Source of the DNA: Ancylobacter aquaticus | GTDB lineage: Bacteria > Pseudomonadota > Alphaproteobacteria > Rhizobiales > Xanthobacteraceae | Direction: 5' to 3' | Assembly (NCBI RefSeq): GCF_004339465.1 | Contig: NZ_SMFY01000003.1 | Location: 310,001-374,000 of the forward strand | Length of the DNA stretch: 64,000 bases | Part shown: positions 1,447-23,862 of the stretch, piece after piece | Layout: every line of letters begins with the position of its first letter | Position numbering within the stretch: the first letter of the stretch is position 1 | Made by a program: the position numbers and the translations under genes | The notes under the pieces: model-generated | Database searches by the model: none | What the model was told of the DNA's origin: nothing | Seen by the model: the letters and a program-made list of their open reading frames with translations, nothing else

Positions 1447-2706
1447 TTAGCGCGGCGGAATGCCGGGCTGGAGGCCGACCTGCCCGCGCGGGAAGCGGGC
1501 AATGATCGCGGGGTCGATGTTGAGGTGCTGGGCGACGAGTTCCGGTGGCGCGTGGGCCAGCCAGTCGGCGAGGTCGACCTCCTGATATTCGGGCGCGCGG
1601 AACACGGCGAGCACCTGCACGTCCTCGTCGCCGGTGTTCTCGATATAGTGACCCTGGCTTTTGGGCACGACGCCGAGATCGCCGGCCTGGAAGTCGATGG
1701 TCTGGGCGCGCGGGCCGGTGTTGAACACCGTCATGCGGCCGCGTCCCTTGATCCAGTACTGCCACTCATCGGCGTTGGGGTGCCAGTGCATGCGCCTGAG
1801 GCCGCCGGGCCGGATGGTCTCGATGGCGGCGGCGATGGTGGTGGAGGCCTTGAAGGTGCGGCTGTCGGCGAGGTGAACTTCACCCGCCTCGTTCTTCTTC
1901 ACCGGGGTGGTGGCGGTGAGCGAGAAGGTGAAAGGCTCGGCGGGCGAGCGGCCGGTGGCGACGGCGGCCTGGTCAATGGCGAGCGGCGGCGGCTCCTTGC
2001 CCTGGAAGATCCACAGATCCTGCAGCGGGATATTCTTGAAGGTATCCGCCGGCACGCCGAAATTCTGCGCCAGTATGTTGGGCGGGGTGTGGGCGAACCA
2101 GTCGGTCAGCAGCAGCGTGTTGTATTCAGACTGAAAGGCGTCGTCGAAGACCAGAACGAATTCGGCGCCGTCGGGACCCAGGCCCTGCAGCGAGTGCGGG
2201 TAGCCGGCGGGGAAGAACCACAGGTCGCCGGCGCCGACATCGCGCACATAGGGGGTGCCGTCCTTGTCCAGCACGGTGATGCGGCAGCGTCCATTGGTCA
2301 TCAGCGCCCATTCGCCGGCGAGGTGCCAGTGCATCTCGCGGATGCCACCGGGGCCGAGGCGCATGTTGACGCCGGAGACTTCCTTGGCGGCGGGGAATTC
2401 GGTGGCGGTGATCTGCCGCGCCCAGCCGCCGGCCTGGATGCGCTTGGGCATGATGTTGAAGGAGGACCACATCATCGGCATGTTGCCGACATCGGTGGCG
2501 GGCGGGTTCTGGAAGGACGGGATCTGCGCCTCCAGCGCCGGGCTCTGCGGGCCGGGGCTGGACAGAGCGCCGGGCGTCGCATTGATCGCCCCTTCCGCCG
2601 GCTGGTCCGGGTTGCCGAACGTGGCGGCCTGCGCCGCGCCGCCGGCGACGGCGGCACCGCCGAGGGCGCTGAGCGCGAGCATCGTGCGCCGGGAAAGATT
2701 CTCCAT
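1447..2706 (-). CDS. oxdC: bicupin oxalate decarboxylase, Tat-exported
   Basis: A 419-residue two-cupin protein that would convert oxalate to formate and CO2 using Mn. Both cupins carry full metal sites: His126, His128, Glu132 and His171 in the first (IREMHWH..GEW), and His307, His309, Glu314 and His353 in the second (LRRMHWHPNADEW). The active-site lid that is SENS in the Bacillus enzyme reads Ser193-Glu194-Tyr195-Asn196 here; the Glu needed for decarboxylation is kept. The N-terminus (LSRRTMLALSALGGAAVAGG) is a Tat-type signal ending near AQA, so the enzyme should act in the periplasm. The chosen ATG places this signal first and has a GGAG-type ribosome site. The gene is on the same strand as the formate dehydrogenase locus just upstream, which could consume the formate. 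An oxalate oxidase activity is the alternative. Confidence 0.88.
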   Translation of the reverse strand: MENLSRRTMLALSALGGAAVAGGAAQAATFGNPDQPAEGAINATPGALSSPGPQSPALEAQIPSFQNPPATDVGNMPMMWSSFNIMPKRIQAGGWARQITATEFPAAKEVSGVNMRLGPGGIREMHWHLAGEWALMTNGRCRITVLDKDGTPYVRDVGAGDLWFFPAGYPHSLQGLGPDGAEFVLVFDDAFQSEYNTLLLTDWFAHTPPNILAQNFGVPADTFKNIPLQDLWIFQGKEPPPLAIDQAAVATGRSPAEPFTFSLTATTPVKKNEAGEVHLADSRTFKASTTIAAAIETIRPGGLRRMHWHPNADEWQYWIKGRGRMTVFNTGPRAQTIDFQAGDLGVVPKSQGHYIENTGDEDVQVLAVFRAPEYQEVDLADWLAHAPPELVAQHLNIDPAIIARFPRGQVGLQPGIPPR

Positions 2707-3043
2707 GTTCCGCTCTCCTTGCTGCATCGGGGTGCAGGTGCGCCCAGTTTGTGGCGGCGTCCTGCGGTGCTGGGACTGTTCTAGGGGACGGCGGCGGGAA
2801 ATCTTGCCCGCACGCACGGCCCGGCCGGGGTGGCGGGCACTTGCGCAAATTCAAACCGAAGGGAGCGGAGGGGCACCCCTCTTGGTATGAGAATTCCCTA
2901 GAGCGTCTGCGACGGGCTCCCTTCGCCAAACAGGCTCAGGCTATCGACGGGAGGGCCGTTTCTTCACGGTCAGGCGAGGTCACCGGATCGGGTCGCGCGC
3001 GGGCACTTTCAGGCGAGGTGAACGCAATTCCGCAGAACACGCT
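2707..3043. other. intergenic region between selB/selC and the oxalate decarboxylase gene
   Basis: About 340 bp with no convincing gene. It holds the 5' flank of the minus-strand cupin gene. An 11-bp direct repeat TCAGGCGAGGT occurs at 2970-2980 and 3009-3019, of unknown meaning. I see no T-tract terminator for selC on the minus strand here. Confidence 0.5.
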
Positions 3044-5176
3044 CTACCGGTGCGGCCCGGAACCGGAAGGCGAAGGAGTTGGCGGAAGAGAGTGGGAGTC
3101 GAACCCACCAGGGACCGGCTCGCGGCCCCTTCCGGATTTGAAGTCCGGATACCTCACCGGAGGTAACGCTCTTCCAGAAGTCACGCCCGCACCCGGCGCG
3201 GGGGTGGCGGGAACGCCTTGCTCGACCGCAGTGTCGTCGATCGCGCCGAACAGGTCCAGCCGGTGGCGGTTGATGCGGCGCAGATCGCCGCGCCGCAGGG
3301 TGACGCCGTGGCGGTCGAGGAATTCCAGGATCTGGATCGCCACCTTGCGCCCGACCGCATGGTCGCCCTCCTCGATGCGATCGCGAAAGGCGCTGGCGGG
3401 AAACTCCCGCCCCGGCGCGGCGGCGGACAGCGCGCCAGCCATCGCCACCATCTCGGCGAGCGTGGGGCGAAGGAAGAAATGGTCGTGGGCCACTTCGTCC
3501 ACCTTGCCCATGCGGGCCAGCAGCTTCATCAGCCGGCGGATGTCGGCTTCGGCCTCGCCGGTCATGGCGGCGAGATCGCGCACCCGCGGGGGACGGAAGC
3601 GGGCGGCGCCGGCGAGGGGCGGTGCGATCCGCGCCCAGAGGATTTCGTCGCCGCTGGTGAGCCGCACCTCATGGCCGGGCAGCCGGACCCAGGCGCCTTC
3701 CAGCACCAGCGCCCGGTCTTCGGCGAGGTGACGCAGCGCCTCGGTGAAGACGGGCCTGGAGAGGCGCGGGGTGAGGGCGAGGCGCAGCTTCTCCGCGCCG
3801 ATGCCCGGCAGGTCCGGATTGGCGTCGTGGAAACGGGCCAGCTCGGCCAGAGCCGCGCCGGCATAGAGCGCCCAGCGCTCCGGCGACAGCGCGGTGAGGG
3901 TGCCGTCAGCGGCGAAGGCTGTGAGGCCGAGCCGGGCCGCGAGGGCCGGCGCCGCGTCGCGTGCCAGCGCCCGGTCGCGGGCGAAGGCGACGAGATCGAC
4001 ATACCAGGGCGCGACCGCCAGCAGCCCCGCGACGGCGGCGTCCGGGTCGGTCTGGCTGAGGGCGTCGAGCTGGGCGAGGCGCTCGGGCGTGCGGCGCTTG
4101 CGGGCGGGGGCGCGCAGGTCGATCAACCGGCCGCCGCCGAGGCTGCGCTGGGCCGAGGTGTCGCGGATCACATAGCGGTCGCCCATTGCGGCGGCGACCG
4201 GGCGCTCCAGCACGATCTGCACGAGGCCTGTCGTGCCGGGGGCGAGGGTGTCGTCCGAGAGCGGGACCAGACGGGCACCGACCTCGCTCGCCCCGTGGTG
4301 AAAGCGCACCGGAAACCACGCGCCGAGCGGCTTCGGCTCGCTTGCCAGCACGGTGAGGGTGGCGTCGAGCCGCTCGGTGGGGGCGTGGAGGGTGGGGTCG
4401 AGCACCATGTCGCCGCGCTGGATCGCGTCGGGCGAGATGGCCTCGCCGGCGAGGTTGAGTGCGCAGCGATCACCGGCGCGGCCCTCCTCCGCCTTGCGGT
4501 TCTGGGCGTGGAGCGAGCGCAGCCGGGCGGGCAGGCCGTCGGGGCCGACCATCAGCGGATCGCCCACCCGCACCCGGCCGGAGAGCACCGTGCCGGTCAC
4601 CACCGTGCCGGCGCCGGCAATCGTGAACGAGCGGTCCACCGCGAGGCGGAAACGGCCTTCCCCTGGACGGGCGGCGAAAACGCGGGCCGCCTCGACGAGG
4701 CGGGCGCGCAGCGCCTCCACCCCCTCGCCGGTGTGGGCGGAGACCGGCACGACGGGCGCGCCCGCCAGCGCCGTGCCATCCAGCAGCGCGGCGATCTCGG
4801 CTGTCACGTCGGCCCGGCGGTTCTCGTCGGCAAGGTCGGCCTTGGTGAGGGCGACAATCCCGCGGGTGATGCCGAGCAGGTCGATGAGGGCGAGATGCTC
4901 GCGGGTCTGCGGCATCACCCCGTCATCGCAGGCGATGACCAGCAGGGCGAAGTCGATGCCGCTGGCCCCCGCCAGCATGGTGTGGATGAATTTCTCATGC
5001 CCCGGCACGTCGATGAAGCCGAGCGTGCCGGCTTCTGTGGGCAGATAGGCGAAGCCGAGGTCGATGGAGATGCCGCGCGCCTTCTCCTCTTTCAGCCGGT
5101 CGGTATCGACGCCGGTGAGCGCGCCGACCAGCGCGGTCTTGCCATGGTCGATATGGCCGGCGGTGCCGATGATCAT
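3044..5176 (-). CDS. selB: selenocysteine-specific elongation factor SelB; frame runs through selC
   Basis: SelB is the EF-Tu-like GTPase that brings Sec-tRNA to UGA codons marked by a SECIS hairpin. The G domain is clear: GHIDHGKT (7-14), DVPGHEKF (57-64) and TKAD. Translation-factor barrels follow, then C-terminal winged-helix repeats that bind the SECIS RNA; the last recognisable homology ends around LFGAIDD (~650). The start ATG overlaps the selA stop (ATGA). The odd point is the end: the frame has no stop until 3044, so residues ~668-699 would be translated from the tRNA-Sec gene (VRYPDFKSG...GFDSHSLPP). Bacterial SelB proteins are usually about 610-660 residues, so about 667 residues precede the tRNA. 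A UGA in another frame lies at 3183-3181, so a small indel could also explain the open frame. Confidence 0.95.
3080..3175 (-). tRNA. selC: tRNA-Sec (UCA anticodon)
   Basis: The minus strand reads GGAAGAGCGTTACCTCCGGT at the 5' end and ends GTTCGACTCCCACTCTCT then TCCGCCA, so CCA is encoded. The 96-nt length, the long extra arm, a six-pair D stem (TACCTC/GAGGTA), an anticodon loop CTTCAAA (anticodon UCA) within a CCGGA/TCCGG stem, and a five-pair T stem (GTGGG/CCCAC) all fit tRNA-Sec and closely track E. coli selC. Seven acceptor pairs are clear; the eighth would be a C·U mismatch. The gene lies entirely inside the selB reading frame. Confidence 0.97.
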
Positions 5177-6594
5177 TCCGGCACCCTTATGTGGGCGAGG
5201 CTGGCGAGGAAGCCGGCCTCGTCCTCCAGGGCGCGCGCATCGAGGATCAGCGCGCCCTCATTGATGCGGCCGATGACCGGGACGGGCAGGGACCGCAGCG
5301 CCGCCGCCAGCGCGTTAAGCCGGCCGCCGGAGGCCTCCGCCGCCGGCCGGATGGCGAAGCCCGCGCTCGGCAGCGTTTCCAGCGGCAGGGCGCCGGAACC
5401 GATCTGGCTGACGCAATCGACGATCTCGATATCGAAATCCTCGCCCAGGGCGCTCGCGAGCGGTTCGGCCAGATCATGGGCGCGGGCGGCGATTTCCGTG
5501 CGGGTGCGCGCCAGCAGCCGCAGGGTCGGCAGCCGGGCGGCCAGCCTTTCCGGATCGCGGTAGAGCCTGAGCGTTGCCTCCAGCGCCGCGAGGCGGATCT
5601 TGTCGACCCTCAGCGCCCGCTTCATCGGGTTCTTGTTGAGGCGGGCGATGAGGTCGGCACGACCGACGATGAAGCCGGTCTGCGGCCCGCCGAGCAACTT
5701 GTCGCCGGAGAAGGTGACGAGGTCCGCCCCTTCCGCCACCGCCTCGCGCACCGTCGGCTCATGGGCGAGGCCGAGGCGGGCGAGATCGAACAGCGTGCCC
5801 GAGCCGAGGTCGTTGACGAGGGGCACGCCGCGCGCATGGGCAATCTCCGCCAGCTCCCGCGCTGGCACCTCCCGGGTGAAGCCCTCGATGCGGTAATTCG
5901 AGGTGTGCACCTTCAGCACCAGCCCGGTCGCATCATTGATGGCGCCGGCATAGTCGTTCGGGTGGGTGCGATTGGTGGTGCCGATCTCGACCAGCGTCGC
6001 CCCGGCGCGGGCCATGATATCGGGCATGCGGAAGGCGCCGCCGATCTCGATCAACTCGCCGCGCGAGACGATCGCTTCGCGTCCCAGGCCCAGCGTGTTC
6101 AGCACCAGCAGCACGGCGGCGGCGTTGTTGTTGACGACGGTGGCGTCCTCCGCGCCCGTCAGCTCGATGAGAAGCGCGCGCACATGGTCGTCGCGCTCGC
6201 CGCGCTTTCCGGTGGCAAGGTCATATTCCAGCGCCACGGCGGACCGCATGGCGGCTGTTGCGGCCGCTACCGCCTCTTCCGCCAGTACGGCCCGGCCGAG
6301 ATTGGTGTGCAGCACCGTGCCGGTGAGGTTGAACACCGAGCGCAGGTTGGCCCGGGCGCCGCGCTCCAGCGCCTCGATTGCGGCAAGCGCCACGTGGTCG
6401 GGTGCGGGCAGGGCGGCGAGCCGGCCCGCCAGCAGGCAGGCGCGCACCTCGTCCAGTGCGGCGCGGATCGCCTGCGTGGCGGGCGCACGGCCGAAACGCT
6501 CCACCGCCTGCTGGCCGGCCGGCGTCGCCAGCACGCGGTCGACCGAGGGCAGGTCGCGCGGCGAGGGGGAAGCGAGGCGGGAGGTCGCGTCCAT
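5173..6594 (-). CDS. selA: L-seryl-tRNA(Sec) selenium transferase
   Basis: SelA is a PLP enzyme that converts seryl-tRNA(Sec) to selenocysteyl-tRNA with selenophosphate. The 473-residue length matches the family (~460). An N-terminal tRNA-binding domain is followed by [16 protein letters not shown] (87-102), VVNNNAAAV (153-161) and the PLP lysine Lys299 in [10 protein letters not shown] (296-305). It sits between fdhE (10-bp gap) and selB (4-bp ATGA overlap), implying coupled translation within one operon. Confidence 0.97.
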
Positions 6595-6604
6595 GGCCCC
6601 GTCC

Positions 6605-7516
6605 TCAATAACCGAGCAGGAAGGGATTGAAGGCGGCGCGGCGATAGGGGCCTTCGCGCATCATCAGGTCGAGACCCAGCGTGCCGATGTCGTCGGCTAC
6701 CGGCTCGATGGTGACGTCCTTGTTCTGGTACATCACCTTCACATAGGTGTGGCACTCGTCGCAGGTTTCCGCCTTCACCGTTCCGGGGCTGCCCTCGATC
6801 TCCTGATAGCCGATGCCCTTGGTGGTGCCGCAGGCGCAGCAGCGTATGCGGACATAGTGCCAGAGGGTGGAGCAGAGCGAGCAGGCGCAGAAGCGGTTGC
6901 CATGGGCGTTCGGCCATTCGACGATGAGCGAAGCCACCGGCGGGCCGCCGCAGGCCGGGCACACGCCATCGCCCACCGGCACCAGCTTTTTTGCGTCGAG
7001 CGTGGCGGCGAGGCGGGCGAAATGCACCTGCAGCGCGGCCGCGACATAGACATGCTCGGCCAGTCTTTCCACCGGCAGATCATGGGCCAGCACGTCGCGC
7101 ACCATCTGCGCGCGCCCCGCACCCTCGGCGAGACGGACACGGGTCAGCGCCTGTGCCGCCTCGTCGGGCATCGGCACGCCGGCGGCGGCGTCGAACAACT
7201 GGTCGAGCGTTGCCTCCAGCGTGTCGTCGAGCGTGGTGGTGGCGCGCTCCAGCGCCGGCATCTCGAAGGCGCGGGCACGCTCCAGCCTTTCCGGATCGTG
7301 CGGCTCCACCGGCGGCAGGGCGGGGATAATGGCCTGCTGCGCCTCGATGAGGCCGGCGATGAAGTCGAGATAGGGTTTTAGCGGGCTGACCGCCGCATAG
7401 GTGCGCAGCCGCTTCGCCCGCACACCGAAAAGGGTCGACGGATCGGGCAGTACCGCGAAGGGCGGGATGGAGACGGCACCGATCACGGTGGGGTCGGGCT
7501 TAAGGTCTTGGGACAT
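6605..7516 (-). CDS. fdhE: formate dehydrogenase accessory protein FdhE
   Basis: FdhE is a cytosolic rubredoxin-like factor needed to mature respiratory formate dehydrogenases. The 303-residue protein has the expected C-terminal metal-binding cysteine pairs: CPACGG, CSLC, CCACGTTKG and CDECHTYVK. Two adjacent ATGs are possible; the second (7516-7514) is better spaced from the GAGG ribosome site. It lies between fdoI and selA in the operon, an arrangement typical of fdo/fdn loci. Confidence 0.95.
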   Translation of the reverse strand: MSQDLKPDPTVIGAVSIPPFAVLPDPSTLFGVRAKRLRTYAAVSPLKPYLDFIAGLIEAQQAIIPALPPVEPHDPERLERARAFEMPALERATTTLDDTLEATLDQLFDAAAGVPMPDEAAQALTRVRLAEGAGRAQMVRDVLAHDLPVERLAEHVYVAAALQVHFARLAATLDAKKLVPVGDGVCPACGGPPVASLIVEWPNAHGNRFCACSLCSTLWHYVRIRCCACGTTKGIGYQEIEGSPGTVKAETCDECHTYVKVMYQNKDVTIEPVADDIGTLGLDLMMREGPYRRAAFNPFLLGY

Positions 7517-7638
7517 CATCACCTCACGAACCGCACGGGCCACGTGTTACATCTGGGGCGCCGCGCGCTTTTCGACGTCGCCCTGCTGCGCCCTCCCGGA
7601 CGGCCGAGGGCCGTTCCGGGAAGGCGGTCGCCGCCCGC

Positions 7639-8364
7639 CTATTCCGCCGGCGTGCCGGGCCGCGGGACGGGGCGGCGCGGCTTGCCGACCAGTTCGCGCA
7701 GCCATTTGCGGTGGTGCCGCCAGGCCCAGCCGCCTGTCACCTTGCCTCGCGTCATGGCGCCGATGGTGCCCTTGACCCAGATGGCGGCATAGACGTGGAT
7801 GATCCACACGCAGATGATGCAGACCGCCGCCACCGCATGGACGAGGACGGCGACACGCTTCTGCTCGATGGTGGTGAAGGCGTAGAAATACTGGTCCCAC
7901 ATCGCGATGCCGCTGGCGATCAGCACGATGATGAGGCCCGACATGCCCCAGAAGACGAATTTCTGGCCGGCATTGTACTTGCCGATTTCCGGTAGCCTCT
8001 CCTCCCGCCCGCGAAGCACGTCGCTGATGCGGGCGAGCCAGGTGCCGTCCTCCCGCGCGGGGAGATTCGCCCGCCAGAAGCGCAGGAACAGTCCGGCAAA
8101 GGAGAAGAACAGCACCACGCCGATCCAGGGATGCAGCACCCGCGTCCACTGCCCGCCGCCGAACAGGCCGGTGAGGAAGAACAGCTTCGGCGTGAACAGC
8201 GCCATGCCCGACAGCGCCAGCAGGACGAGGCTGAGGGCGGTGATCCAGTGATTGATGCGGGCGGGCAGCGTATAGCGCGACACCTGCACCGGGTGGCCCG
8301 GGCGAACGGAATCGCCCGGTTCCACATCATTCGGCGTATCGGTCTTGAGGTTGTCGGCGCTCAT
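7639..8364 (-). CDS. fdoI: formate dehydrogenase cytochrome b556 (gamma) subunit
   Basis: A 241-residue inner membrane dihaem cytochrome b that passes electrons from FdoH to quinone. Four hydrophobic helices are visible (about 40-60, 79-95, 134-153, 176-197). Candidate haem-ligating histidines are in [26 protein letters not shown] and [13 protein letters not shown], matching FdnI/FdoI. The start overlaps the fdoH stop by 4 bp (ATGA). A charged Arg/Pro C-terminal tail follows the last helix. Confidence 0.95.
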
Positions 8365-9347
8365 GGCGTCCTCCCCTCGTGCAGGCCGGCGGGCGGTGCC
8401 GGCGGCGGCGTGCCGTCGGCGAGCCTCTCGGCGTTCTCCTCGTCCTCCTCCGAGACCTTGTTCGGCCCGGCGACGACATAGTGCAGGAAGCCGGCGGCGG
8501 CCGCGAAGCCCATCACCGCGAGGCCGACATATTTGGTCATGCCCTTCCAGGCGTCGACGAGGGGCGAGATGCGCGGATTATCCGGCAGGCCGGCATAGAT
8601 GGACGGCGTGTCGGCATGGTGCAGCACATACATGACATGGGTGCCGCCCACGCCCGGCGGGTCATAGAGGCCCGCATTCTCGAAGCCGCGCGACTTGAGG
8701 TCGGTAATGCGCAGCTCGGCCCAGTCCTTCATCTCGTCCTTGGTGCCGAAGACGATGGCCTGGGTCGGGCACGCCTTCTGGCAGGCCGGGCCCTGGCCGA
8801 CCGCGACGCGGTCGGAGCACAGCGTGCATTTGTAGGCGGTGTGATCGACCTTGGAGATGCGCGGAATGTTGAACGGGCAGCCCTTGATGCAGTAGCCGCA
8901 GCCGATGCAGTTGTCGTGCTGGAAGTCCACGATGCCGTTGGAGTACTGCACGATGGCGCCGGGCGCCGGGCAGGCCTTGAGGCAGCCCGGATCCTCGCAA
9001 TGCATGCAGCCATCCTTGCGGATGAGCCATTCGAGATTTTCGGTCTCGGGGTTCACCCATTCGGTGAAGCGCATCAGGGTGAAGGTGTCCGGCGTCAGGT
9101 CCATGGGATTGGTGTAGGTCCCGTGGTTGAAGCCGATCTCCTCGGTCAGGTTATTCCATTCCAGGCACGCGGCCTGGCAGGCCTTGCAGCCGATGCATTT
9201 CGACACGTCGATCAGCTTGGCGACCTCGGTCAGCCGCTGGGCAGGCGGCGTGACCTCGGAGGCCGAGCGGCGCATCACATCCTTCTCGCCGAAACGCGGG
9301 GTGGCGGCGTCGGAGGCGACGGAGGGGTTGGGGATGGGTGGGAACAT
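8361..9347 (-). CDS. fdoH: formate dehydrogenase iron-sulfur (beta) subunit
   Basis: A 328-residue electron-transfer subunit with four ferredoxin-type [4Fe-4S] cysteine sets: [35 protein letters not shown] and CTLCSDRV...CQKAC. A single C-terminal membrane anchor ([21 protein letters not shown]) holds it to the membrane facing the periplasm, as in FdnH/FdoH. It follows fdoG by about 12 bp and overlaps fdoI. Confidence 0.96.
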
Positions 9348-9359
9348 GCTGCCGCCTCC

Positions 9360-12300
9360 CTATGCCACCACCGGCCCGGTGGAGGGCTCGATGTTGACCA
9401 TGAACGCCTTGAACTCCGGGGTCTCGATATTGGCGTCGCCCACGAAGGGGGTCAGCGTGTTCGCCGTGAAGCCCTTGCGGGCGGCGCCGACAAAGCCCCA
9501 GTGGATGGGCACGCCGACGATGTGGACGATCTTGCCGTCGACGGTCATCGGCTTGATGCGCTTGGTGACGACCGCCTTGGCGTAGAGTTCGCCGCGCTTC
9601 GACCACACCCGCACCCAGCCGCCGAGCTCGATGCCCTTGTCCTTCGCCAGTTCCTCGGAAATCTCCACGAACTGTTCCGGCTGCAGGACCGAGTTCACAT
9701 GGTTGTTCTTGGTCCAGTAGTGGAAATGCTCGGTGAGACGGTAGGAGGTGCCGGCATAGGGGAAGGCCGGATCGCCGATGTCGGCGAAGGTCTTCCAGTC
9801 GTCCGGGAACACGCGCGCCACCGGGTTGCCGCGTATCTTCGGGGCGATGACATTGGCGACCGGGCTCTCGAACGGCTCGTAATGCACCGGGAACGGCCCG
9901 TCCCGCATCATCTTGCGCACCCAAAGGCGGGAGGTGCCCTCGGGGTTCATGATGAAGGGGCCGACATCCCTCGGCTTGGCGGTGGGCGCGATGTCCGGCA
10001 CGTCGTAGCCGGTCCACTTGGCGCCGTCCCACTCGATCAGCTTGCGCGAGGGGTCCCACGGCTTGCCGTCGACGTCGCAGGAGGCGCGGTTGTAGAGGAT
10101 GCGCCGGTTCGCCGGCCAGGAGAACGACCATTTGAGGAACATGCCGGCGTCGCCCGGGTCGGAATTGTCCCGTCGCGCCATCATGTTGCCGGCCTCGGTC
10201 CAGCAGCCGGAGAAGATCCAGCAGCCGCCCGCCGTGGTGCCGTCGTCGCGCAGTTGGCCGAAGCCGGAAAGCTGCTTGCCGGCTTCCAGCACCTTCTTGG
10301 TCGGGTCGACGGGGTCGTACACGTCGGCCAGTACCGAGCCGTTCATCTCCCGCGCCAGTTCCTCCGCCGTCGGCTCGCCGGGGTCCTTGTAGGTCCAGTT
10401 GAGGTTGACGATCGGGTCGGGGAAGGCGCCGCCTTCCTTCTGGTACAGTTCCTTCAGCCGCAGGTGGATCTGCGCCATGATCCAGATGTCGGTCTTGGCC
10501 TCGCCCGGAGGCGAGCCACCCGGCCAGTGCCATTGCAGCCAGCGGCCGGAATTGACCAGCGAGCCCTCATCCTCGGCGAAGCAGGTGGTGGGAAGCTGGA
10601 TCACCTCGGTCTGGATATCCGCCGGGCTCACCTTGTTGAAGGTGCCGTGATCCTCCCAGAAGCGGGCGGTCTCGGTCTGCAACGGGTCCATGATGACGAG
10701 CATTTTCAGCTTGGCGAGACCCGCCGCCAGCTTGCCCTTGTCCGGGAAAGCCTGAAGCGGGTTGAACCCCTGGCAGAAATAGAGGTTCACCTTGCCATTC
10801 TTCATCATGTCGAAGATGCGCAGCACGTCGTAGCTGGCGACATCGAGCTTGGGCAAATAGTTGTAGCCCCAGTCGTTCTCGGCTGTCGCGGCGGGCCCGT
10901 ACATCGACTTCATGAAGCTGACGAAGAACTTGCGGTAGTTCTGCCAGTAGCTCGTCTGGTTCGGCCGCAGCGGCTTGAAGGCCCGGGTCGACATATAGGT
11001 GGTGAAGTCCGGTTCCTTCTGGGTGGGGATGTTGAGATAGCCCGGGATGAGGTTGCTCATCAGCCCGAGATCGGTCAGCCCCTGGATGTTGGAATGGCCG
11101 CGCAGGGCATTCATGCCACCGCCGCGCACGCCAATATTGCCCAGGATGAGCTGCAGCATCGCCATGCCGCGAATGTTCTGCGAGCCCTTGGAGTGCTGGG
11201 TCCAGCCGAGCGCATACATGCTCGTCATGGTCTTGGTCGGGGTCGAACATTCGCCGACCATCTCTGCCACCTTGAGGAACGCCTCCTTGGGCGTGCCGCA
11301 GATGCGCTCCACCATCTCGGGCGTGTAGATGGCGACGTGCTCTTTCAGCAGGTTCCACACGCAGCGCGGGTTCTGAAGCGTCTCGTCCACAACGGCATAG
11401 CCGTCCGGCCCGATTTCGTACTCCCAGCTGTCGCGGTTGTAGTCGCGCTTTTCCTCGTCATAGCCGGTGAACAGGCCGTCCTGGTAGGCGTAGCCCTCGC
11501 GCACCACGAAGGTGGCGTTGGTGAAGGGCTTCACATATTCCCACTGCACCTTGTCATGGCTGATGCAGTGATTGATCAGCCCCATCAGGAAGGCGATGTC
11601 CGAGCCCTGGCGGATCGGCGCGTAGAAATCCGCCACCGATGCCGAGCGGTTGTAGCGCGGATCGACGACGATGAGCTTGGCGCCCCGGTTGGCTTTCGCC
11701 TCGGTGACCCATTTGAAGCCGCACGGATGGGCTTCGGCGGCATTGCCGCCCATGATGATCACAAGGTCGGTGTTCTTGATGTCCGTCCAGGCGTTGGTCA
11801 TGGCGCCACGGCCAAATGTTGGGGCGAGACTCGCCACCGTCGGGCCGTGTCAGACGCGCGCTTGGTTATCGAATGCCAATATGCCGGTTGAGCGCACGAC
11901 CTTGTAGGTCGCGAACGCGGTTTCGTTGGTGGTCGCGGAGGCCGCGAGGAAGCCGGTGGTGAGCCAGCGATTGACTGTCACGCCGTCCGAATTGGTAGCG
12001 ACGAAATTGGCGTCGCGGTCGTCCTTCATGGCGCGGGCGATCTTGTCGAGCGCCACATCCCAGGAGACGGCCTCGAAGGCGTTTGAGCCGGCCTTGCGCA
12101 GCATCGGCTGGGTAAGCCGGGTCTGCGACTTCACGATGTCGCGCAGGGCCGAGCCCTTGGGGCAGAGCGTGCCGCGATTGGTCGGGTGGTCGGAATCGCC
12201 CTCGATATGGACGATGTCGGCCTTCTCGCCTTTGCGCAGATCACCCTTGGAATAAATGATGATGCCGCAGGCGACCGAGCAGTAGGTGCAGGTGTTTCGC

Positions 12301-14609: not shown

Positions 14610-15668
14610 ATGCTCGACACCCCGGCCGCCGCCCCGTTCCGCCTCACCAGCCTCGCCCATGGCGGGGGCTGTGGCTGCAAGCTGGCGCCTTCGGTGCTGC
14701 GCGAATTGCTGGCGGAACAGCCTTCCAGCGCGGGTTTCGAGCGGCTGCTGGTCGGCACCGAGACCGGCGACGACGCGGCGGTCTACCTCCTCGACGACGA
14801 GACCTGCCTGATCGCCACCACCGACTTCTTCATGCCGATGGTCGACGACCCCTACGCATTCGGCCGCATCGCCGCCACCAACGCGATTTCCGACGTCTAT
14901 GCGATGGGCGGCAAGCCGCTGCTGGCGCTGGCGATCCTCGGCATGCCGCTGGGCAAGCTGGACCCCTCTTTGGTGCGCGAGATCCTGAAGGGTGGCGCCT
15001 CCATCGCCAGCGAGGCCGGCATTCCGGTGGCGGGCGGGCATTCGATCGACGCGCCGGAGCCGATCTACGGCCTCGCGGTGATCGGCACGGCGCGGCCCGA
15101 GCAGATCCGCAAGAACAGCACCGCCTTTGCCGGCGATGCGCTGATCCTCACCAAGGCGCTGGGCGTCGGCGTCTATTCCGCCGCGTTCAAAAAGGAGAAG
15201 CTGTCGCCCGCCGCCTATGACGAGATGATCGCCTCGATGACTCAGCTCAACCGCGTCGGCACCGCGCTCGGCCGGGACGCGCAGGTGCATGCCGTGACCG
15301 ATGTCACCGGCTTCGGCATTCTCGGCCATGGGCTGGAAATGGCGCGCGGCTCGGGCGTGGCGCTGGAGATCGAGGCGGGGGCGCTGCCGTTCCTCGCCGA
15401 GGCGCAAGCGCTGGCGCAGGCGGGCTTCATTACCGGCGCCTCGCACCGCAACTGGGCGAGCTATGGCGAGGGGGTGCGCCTGCCGGAGGGGCTGCCGGAC
15501 TGGAGCCGGCACCTGCTCACCGACCCGCAGACCTCGGGCGGGCTCTTGGTGGCGGTGGCGCCGGAAGCGGCGGAACGGGTACTGGCGGACATCCGCGCCG
15601 CCGGCTTTTCGCGCGCCGCCATGATCGGGCGGGTGGTGGAAGGCGCGCCGTCGGTCACGGTGGTTTAG
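14610..15668 (+). CDS. selD: selenide, water dikinase (selenophosphate synthetase)
   Basis: SelD makes selenophosphate from selenide and ATP, the donor used by SelA. The 352-residue protein has the glycine-rich N-terminus [11 protein letters not shown] with catalytic Cys21 and Lys24; the position that is Sec in some species is Cys here. AIR-synthase-type ATP-binding features follow: [30 protein letters not shown] and [16 protein letters not shown]. It completes the selenocysteine pathway in this window. It sits between the transglutaminase-like gene and larA, separated from the former by a palindromic repeat. Confidence 0.96.
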
Positions 15669-23629: not shown

Positions 23630-23676
23630 GTGGAGCGACCGAAACGGATGGAAACGATCCGCTTCGGTCGCTCCAC
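23630..23676. repeat. 20-bp near-perfect inverted repeat (hairpin)
   Basis: Left arm GTGGAGCGACCGAAACGGAT (23630-23649) and right arm at 23657-23676 are reverse complements with one mismatch (19/20), separated by a 7-nt loop GGAAACG. No T-tract follows on either strand. Confidence 0.85.
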
Positions 23677-23862
23677 TGGAGATAACGTCAGGCCGGTCCA
23701 CAAGCACCGCGGGGGGCTGGGGGGCTGGGAAACCGATGCACTCGCGAACCGGCCCAACGCTATGAAGAGGAGATTGGCTGCCACAAGGGGCATCGCAACG
23801 GCTGAAATCGGGCAGCCTTGTGTTTTCGGTTAACGAGGGCGTGATTCGAGTTTCCGAAGATG

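Follow-up and report, generated by a model that had tools for sequence, protein, structure and literature searches.

The window, a 64,000-nucleotide stretch of the Ancylobacter aquaticus genome, carries a selB reading frame that runs through the entire tRNA-Sec gene (selC) and terminates just behind it. It is a further member of an arrangement already described in Alphaproteobacteria, without the downstream overlap. Comparison with related loci indicated that the overlap is apparently kept by selection, the apparent target of which is the passage of ribosomes and their termination rather than the peptide encoded beyond SelB.

Organization of the selB-selC segment in the window

The selB open reading frame (ORF) starts with ATG, and its first stop codon is the TAG at 3046-3044. 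ARAGORN placed a tRNA-Sec with the anticodon tca at 3175-3080 on the minus strand, the sole tRNA in the window, and the Rfam RF01852 match at 3175-3084 (82 bits against a cut-off of 47) agrees with it. Arithmetic from these coordinates puts all 96 nt of selC in the selB frame as codons 668-699, which read GGA AGA at the start and CCG CCA at the end, with the encoded CCA at 3082-3080. The original prediction, that selB stays open to 3044 and holds selC wholly inside as residues ~668-699, was thus correct to the base, and the TGA that it pointed out at 3183-3181 is present in a different frame from selB. The window protein matches the NCBIfam selB model TIGR00475 with 392 bits (cut-off 242), and the last winged-helix domain detected, Pfam SelB-wing_3, ends at residue 634; from this score and this domain end, SelB looks complete upstream of the tRNA. 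The features of the segment and its surroundings are as follows.

3044-5176, minus strand: selB ORF, 710 codons, through selC to the TAG at 3046-3044
3176-3238, minus strand: linker of 63 nt, from SelB residue 646 to selC; relatives keep its frame, not its sequence
3080-3175, minus strand: selC, tRNA-Sec, 96 nt including the encoded CCA; ARAGORN and Rfam
3044-3079, minus strand: tail after selC, 36 nt, 11 codons plus the TAG stop
5173-6594, minus strand: selA; TIGR00474, 591 bits, cut-off 268; 4-nt overlap with the selB start (5173-5176)
6605-7543, minus strand: fdhE, formate dehydrogenase accessory protein; TIGR01562, 304 bits, cut-off 188
7639-8364, minus strand: formate dehydrogenase gamma (cytochrome) subunit; TIGR01583, 186 bits, cut-off 116
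8361-9347, minus strand: formate dehydrogenase beta subunit; TIGR01582, 479 bits, cut-off 335
11797-11855, minus strand: SECIS element; Rfam RF01989, 86.7 bits; located at UGA 11852-11850, which is in frame in the upstream gene for formate dehydrogenase alpha
1447-2817, minus strand: bicupin, oxalate decarboxylase family; TIGR03404, 514 bits, cut-off 254; next same-strand gene after selB
14640-15569, plus strand: selD; TIGR00476, 430 bits; strand opposite to selB, whose start lies about 9.5 kb away

The selB-selC segment closes a co-directional set consisting, in order, of a formate dehydrogenase gene with an in-frame UGA and a SECIS element, the beta and gamma subunit genes, fdhE, selA, and selB. 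The first of these genes is named alpha from its position and from a reading of the sequence rather than from a family search, and its frame is open on both sides of the UGA once the TGA is read as selenocysteine (U). A simple scan with one consensus revealed no sigma-70-like promoter site in 2600-5500, which is weak evidence against a promoter of selC's own and for cotranscription. A stable fold of the region was rejected, with the predicted 200-nt fold being no better than those of shuffled sequences (z -0.51). In that single-sequence prediction, the 5' strand of the tRNA pairs partly with the tail.

The bicupin gene follows selBC directly in the same direction, and its ORF starts 229 nt past the first base of the selB stop codon, without overlapping selB. 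Decarboxylation of oxalate yields formate, on which the enzyme encoded upstream of selBC acts. Elsewhere in the window, an Rfam match to the Bradyrhizobiaceae sRNA BjrC174 lies at 23651-23845 on the minus strand (61.7 bits, cut-off 45). In four other loci (L116, L112, L110, and L127), selBC is followed by a 348-aa ORF on the opposite strand, the start of which, in L116 and L112, resembles SelD on a reading of the sequence rather than by a family search.

The frame through selC is shared by relatives

A SelB search of genome contigs, from which the best 80 of 173 loci were used, revealed a same-strand tRNA-Sec downstream of selB in 79 of the 80, and the SelB frame runs through selC in 67 of the 79 named loci that reach selC. 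The named loci closest to the window's selB are from Ancylobacter, and several further genomes of the genus are identical to named Ancylobacter loci in the part compared. Within the genus Ancylobacter (30 genomes, including the window's), 18 are open through selC and 12 have a stop before or inside it. In the SelB tree, the window belongs to a clade of eight species, the other seven of which share the frame in their own assemblies. In the alignment of this clade, the gaps in linker and tail are all multiples of three, and alignability falls past the selB stop codon. The original prediction had staked a real overlap on whether relatives carry a stop upstream of selC, and the answer is divided: the overlap itself is borne out by the 67 of 79 loci and the 18 genus genomes, and it is lost in a minority, including the other 12. 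Since these 12 genomes have lost the open frame, the overlap is a trait that is maintained but dispensable. In one of the genus members, L044, selB ends in a tRNA-Sec-like fragment, and the intact selC is found about 1 kb downstream of it.

The set was extended with further relatives. From a tRNA-Sec search, one match per genome, with an E of at most 5.5e-12, was used in 45 genomes, among them that of the window. Loci with identical 900 nt upstream were merged. Four rows were dropped, one because the contig ends at selB (L075) and three because a SelB match is absent near the tRNA (L031, L046, and L051). After merging, the extended set comprises 102 distinct loci, 81 with the frame open through selC (through loci) and 21 without (broken loci). 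A separate search matched 35 genomes and gave 30 loci, 28 of them new.

Linker length and stop position suggest selection on the frame

Analysis of the 96-nt stretch that starts 3 nt before the tRNA showed that the SelB frame is open in 81 of 81 through loci, which were chosen for this property, and that the other two frames are open in 64 and 79 of the 81. That the tRNA is open in one frame therefore says little by itself about selection. In the linkers of the same loci, the other two frames contain 21 and 54 stops, whereas the SelB frame, by which the rows were chosen, contains 0.

Changes of linker length were counted by parsimony on a quick SelB tree in which 27 of 99 inner branches have less than 80% support. 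The count used 96 of the 101 tree rows, broken and unbroken, with linkers of up to 140 nt; L052 was left out of the tree counts for its very long branch. It yielded 48 length changes and 9 frame changes, so that 39 of the 48 were taken as in frame (p 1e-11 against one third; all such p-values treat the parsimony-inferred changes as independent). Many loci carry a further gene behind selC, labelled ORF2 here, which denotes one protein family and is not equated with the ORF1/ORF2 of Mukai. Among rows without ORF2, 17 of 25 changes are in frame (p 4e-4 against one third), compared with 24 of 25 among rows with it (Fisher p 0.02); L111 was counted here as bearing ORF2, as its close kin do, and was left out of the stop and ORF2 comparisons.

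A second regularity lies in where each frame first stops behind the tRNA, with distances measured from the initial base of CCA. The median distance of this stop is 27 nt for the SelB frame versus 145 and 471.5 nt for the remaining two, and it falls within 36 nt in 73 of 80 loci in the SelB frame versus 4 of 80 in each other frame. Through loci without ORF2 show the same pattern (35 of 36, versus 2 of 36 in each other frame), and those 35 keep the early stop across at least 17 changes of tail length. In the broken loci, excluding L027 and L028, in which one frame ran off the locus, the SelB frame has a median of 90 nt and a stop within 36 nt in 5 of 19 cases, and the three frames score 5, 4, and 3 of 19. 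Among genus rows without ORF2, the stop lies within 36 nt in 16 of 17 through loci versus 2 of 12 broken ones. In a phylum-wide sample of 27 loci, which includes a few relatives and two genomes already used, the figure is 9 of 27 in each frame. Because neither the broken loci nor the phylum-wide sample shows a frame preference, the early stop tracks the frame that is joined to selB. Chance thus does not account for the open linker or for the stop behind the tRNA.

Substitutions in the extension were compared in 23 close pairs of through loci. The differences at codon positions 1/2/3 are 52/39/56 for the linker together with the four preceding codons, and 14/12/15 for the tail, where counts are few, versus 206/123/933 for the SelB body; the pairs share members, so the counts are not independent. 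The linker differences look alike without ORF2 (23/24/28) and with it (25/15/23). With no clear codon-position bias in linker or tail, a conserved C-terminal peptide was rejected as a candidate, and the amino acids of the extension appear to be under no clear constraint. The in-frame length changes, the early stop in one frame, and this lack of bias together suggest that selection sees passage and prompt termination rather than the peptide.

A dual-use RNA model for selB-selC

Based on these comparisons, the selB-selC segment may act as a single dual-use RNA. selC would be transcribed within the formate dehydrogenase-sel operon, and a ribosome finishing SelB would have to pass through selC and end just past it. 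Once RNase P and the enzymes of 3' processing cut at a folded tRNA, the transcript would lose the selB stop; each transcript would yield either SelB or tRNA-Sec, and ribosomes trapped on the cut message would be freed by trans-translation. A tmRNA is encoded in the genome, and tmRNA rescues ribosomes stuck on nonstop messages. The outcome would be that SelB is kept low relative to the tRNA it binds. Taken as a whole, this model, in which ribosome and tRNA processing compete for one RNA, is in our judgement evenly poised between right and wrong. We put forward more tentatively, and on the doubtful side of even, the stronger proposal that ribosome transit through selC is a selected trait independent of the downstream gene, acting as a one-shot switch between SelB and tRNA-Sec in which the balance would be set by ribosome versus RNase P and the peptide would be a by-product free to vary.

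The downstream gene and alternative explanations

The ORF2 family was found in L131, L090, L101, and 41 other through loci, with a start that mostly overlaps the selB stop. Its matches cover 143-174 residues (about 155 aa), 10 of 17 inspected copies end in ETPxVDF, and the one member scanned has no match above cut-off in Pfam or NCBIfam. In 44 of the 81 through loci, the ORF2 match starts no more than 162 nt past selC; of the 21 broken loci, one has ORF2 beside selC. Of the 44, 39 have a start codon that overlaps the selB stop, and in 37 this codon is open in frame into the ORF2 match. A Shine-Dalgarno-like word lies upstream of the overlapping start in 20 of the 39 (control rate 12%), which means that cutting at the 3' end of the tRNA would not make ORF2 leaderless in every locus, contrary to how the model is worded in print. 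ORF2 was scored as absent when the 1500 nt behind selC held no match at 1e-3; nine ORF2-negative distinct rows cover 1496 nt of this span, and L111 only 80. By this definition ORF2 is absent from the window, in which no start codon lies at the selB stop, and a single query of the genome, run without a positive control, found none.

These observations bear on the most serious alternative, in which the overlap is a relic of translational coupling: the frame would have been kept for the overlap of the selB stop with the ORF2 start, ORF2 would then have been lost in most Ancylobacter, the frame would be decaying, and it would have no present function in the window. Besides the association of ORF2 with unbroken frames and its stop/start overlap, this explanation draws on L039, the one genus member of 30 that has ORF2 with the overlap. 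Since L039 has both, ORF2 may once have been present in the genus and then have disappeared from most of it, although L039 may also have gained it later. It also draws on the lower share of in-frame linker changes in rows without ORF2, and on the losses of frame, of which a loss-only count places 12 on branches without ORF2 and 1 on branches with it (p 6e-4). Three of the 12 share a branch with the loss of ORF2: dropping them leaves 1 of 10 on ORF2-bearing branches (p 0.005), and reassigning them to ORF2-bearing branches gives 4 of 13 (p 0.08). Unconstrained parsimony places 6 losses on branches without ORF2 and 0 on branches with it (p 0.006), but at the price of six regains, which we consider unlikely. 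A test of ORF2 against frame loss on independent pairs, of which there are 3, was not significant.

Because the losses concentrate on branches without ORF2, coupling to ORF2 is probably one force keeping the frame. The frame losses where ORF2 is gone fit ordinary translational coupling as a main force, with the window as a remnant. Against the relic explanation, the linkers of loci without ORF2 still change in frame more often than one third of the time, and the early stop persists in these loci across the tail changes given above. The 17 of 25 in-frame changes and the 35 of 36 early stops without ORF2 thus suggest that coupling may not be the sole force, and part of the conservation in such loci may come from recent descent from ORF2-bearing ancestors. 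On balance, we regard the relic explanation as possible but rather unlikely.

A further explanation places the benefit in transcription: translation up to and through selC would keep Rho from terminating the operon transcript and so allow the tRNA to be made, and SelB would be unregulated. This would account for selection on passage without selection on the peptide, and the scan showed no promoter-like site near selC. It is improbable in view of genus relatives that stop before selC, among which linkers of 86, 90, and 238 nt exist. That an open frame in G+C-rich DNA merely happened to cross a mostly open tRNA is more improbable still. Of 28 loci sampled across the phylum, some relatives among them, 25 have a tRNA that is open in the SelB frame, from which it follows that the overlap is easy to acquire, and the G+C content after the tRNA is 67%; however, such neutrality is contradicted by the in-frame length bias, by the early stop in one frame only, and by the loss of this pattern in broken loci. 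An indel introduced by sequencing or assembly close to the selB 3' end, which the original prediction had offered as the simpler reading, is excluded for practical purposes by the frame shared among the seven other species of the clade and by the in-frame gaps of their alignment.

The dual-use RNA model may be approached within the genus itself. Some Ancylobacter species keep the overlap and their sisters have lost it, as in L058 and L044, and this contrast makes the genus well suited by nature to testing whether SelB and tRNA-Sec are balanced in this way.

Comparison with known systems

An entire selC inside selB has been described in diverse Alphaproteobacteria, where the selB stop often overlaps the next ORF (Mukai 2021, PMC8124441). 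By its own account, that study was the first to report a complete tRNA inside a bacterial coding region, and it hypothesizes that tRNA processing converts selB mRNA into a nonstop message, with SelB and tRNA-Sec as alternative products (PMC8124441). The nonstop message proposed in the original prediction corresponds to this published model. Two reviews repeat Mukai's account (PMC13188914, PMC9312934). The name Ancylobacter is absent from the running text of Mukai 2021 (PMC8124441), whose species list stands in its figures. Among titles and abstract openings in the open-access literature, we found no experimental test of the function of a selB-nested selC, and a search of that literature for Ancylobacter together with selenocysteine found no paper on the subject. 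The dual-product model is Mukai's; the quantitative selection tests on the linker frame, the early stop, and the peptide are new here.

In both the window and Mukai's systems, a whole tRNA-Sec lies in direct orientation inside a selB ORF without a stop, the frame is shared with relatives, and the cluster includes a selenocysteine-containing formate dehydrogenase and selA upstream. The tRNA of Mukai's systems is 96 or 93 nt long and reads from GGA (Gly) to CCA/CCN (Pro), and that of the window is 96 nt long, from GGA to CCA. They differ downstream: in many, although not all, of Mukai's cases the selB stop shares nucleotides with the start of the ORF that follows, whereas the window has neither the overlap nor ORF2. 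Two other cases are recounted in the same paper (PMC8124441). The mitochondrial cox1 of Armadillidium vulgare resembles the window in holding a whole tRNA-Lys in direct orientation, but it belongs to a compact mitochondrial genome, whereas the window carries a bacterial operon. On pSymA of Sinorhizobium meliloti, the selB frame continues into tRNA-Sec sequence as it does in the window; there, however, the tRNA in the overlap is broken and selC is located separately, a remnant that the selB end of L044 resembles, whereas the tRNA of the window is intact.
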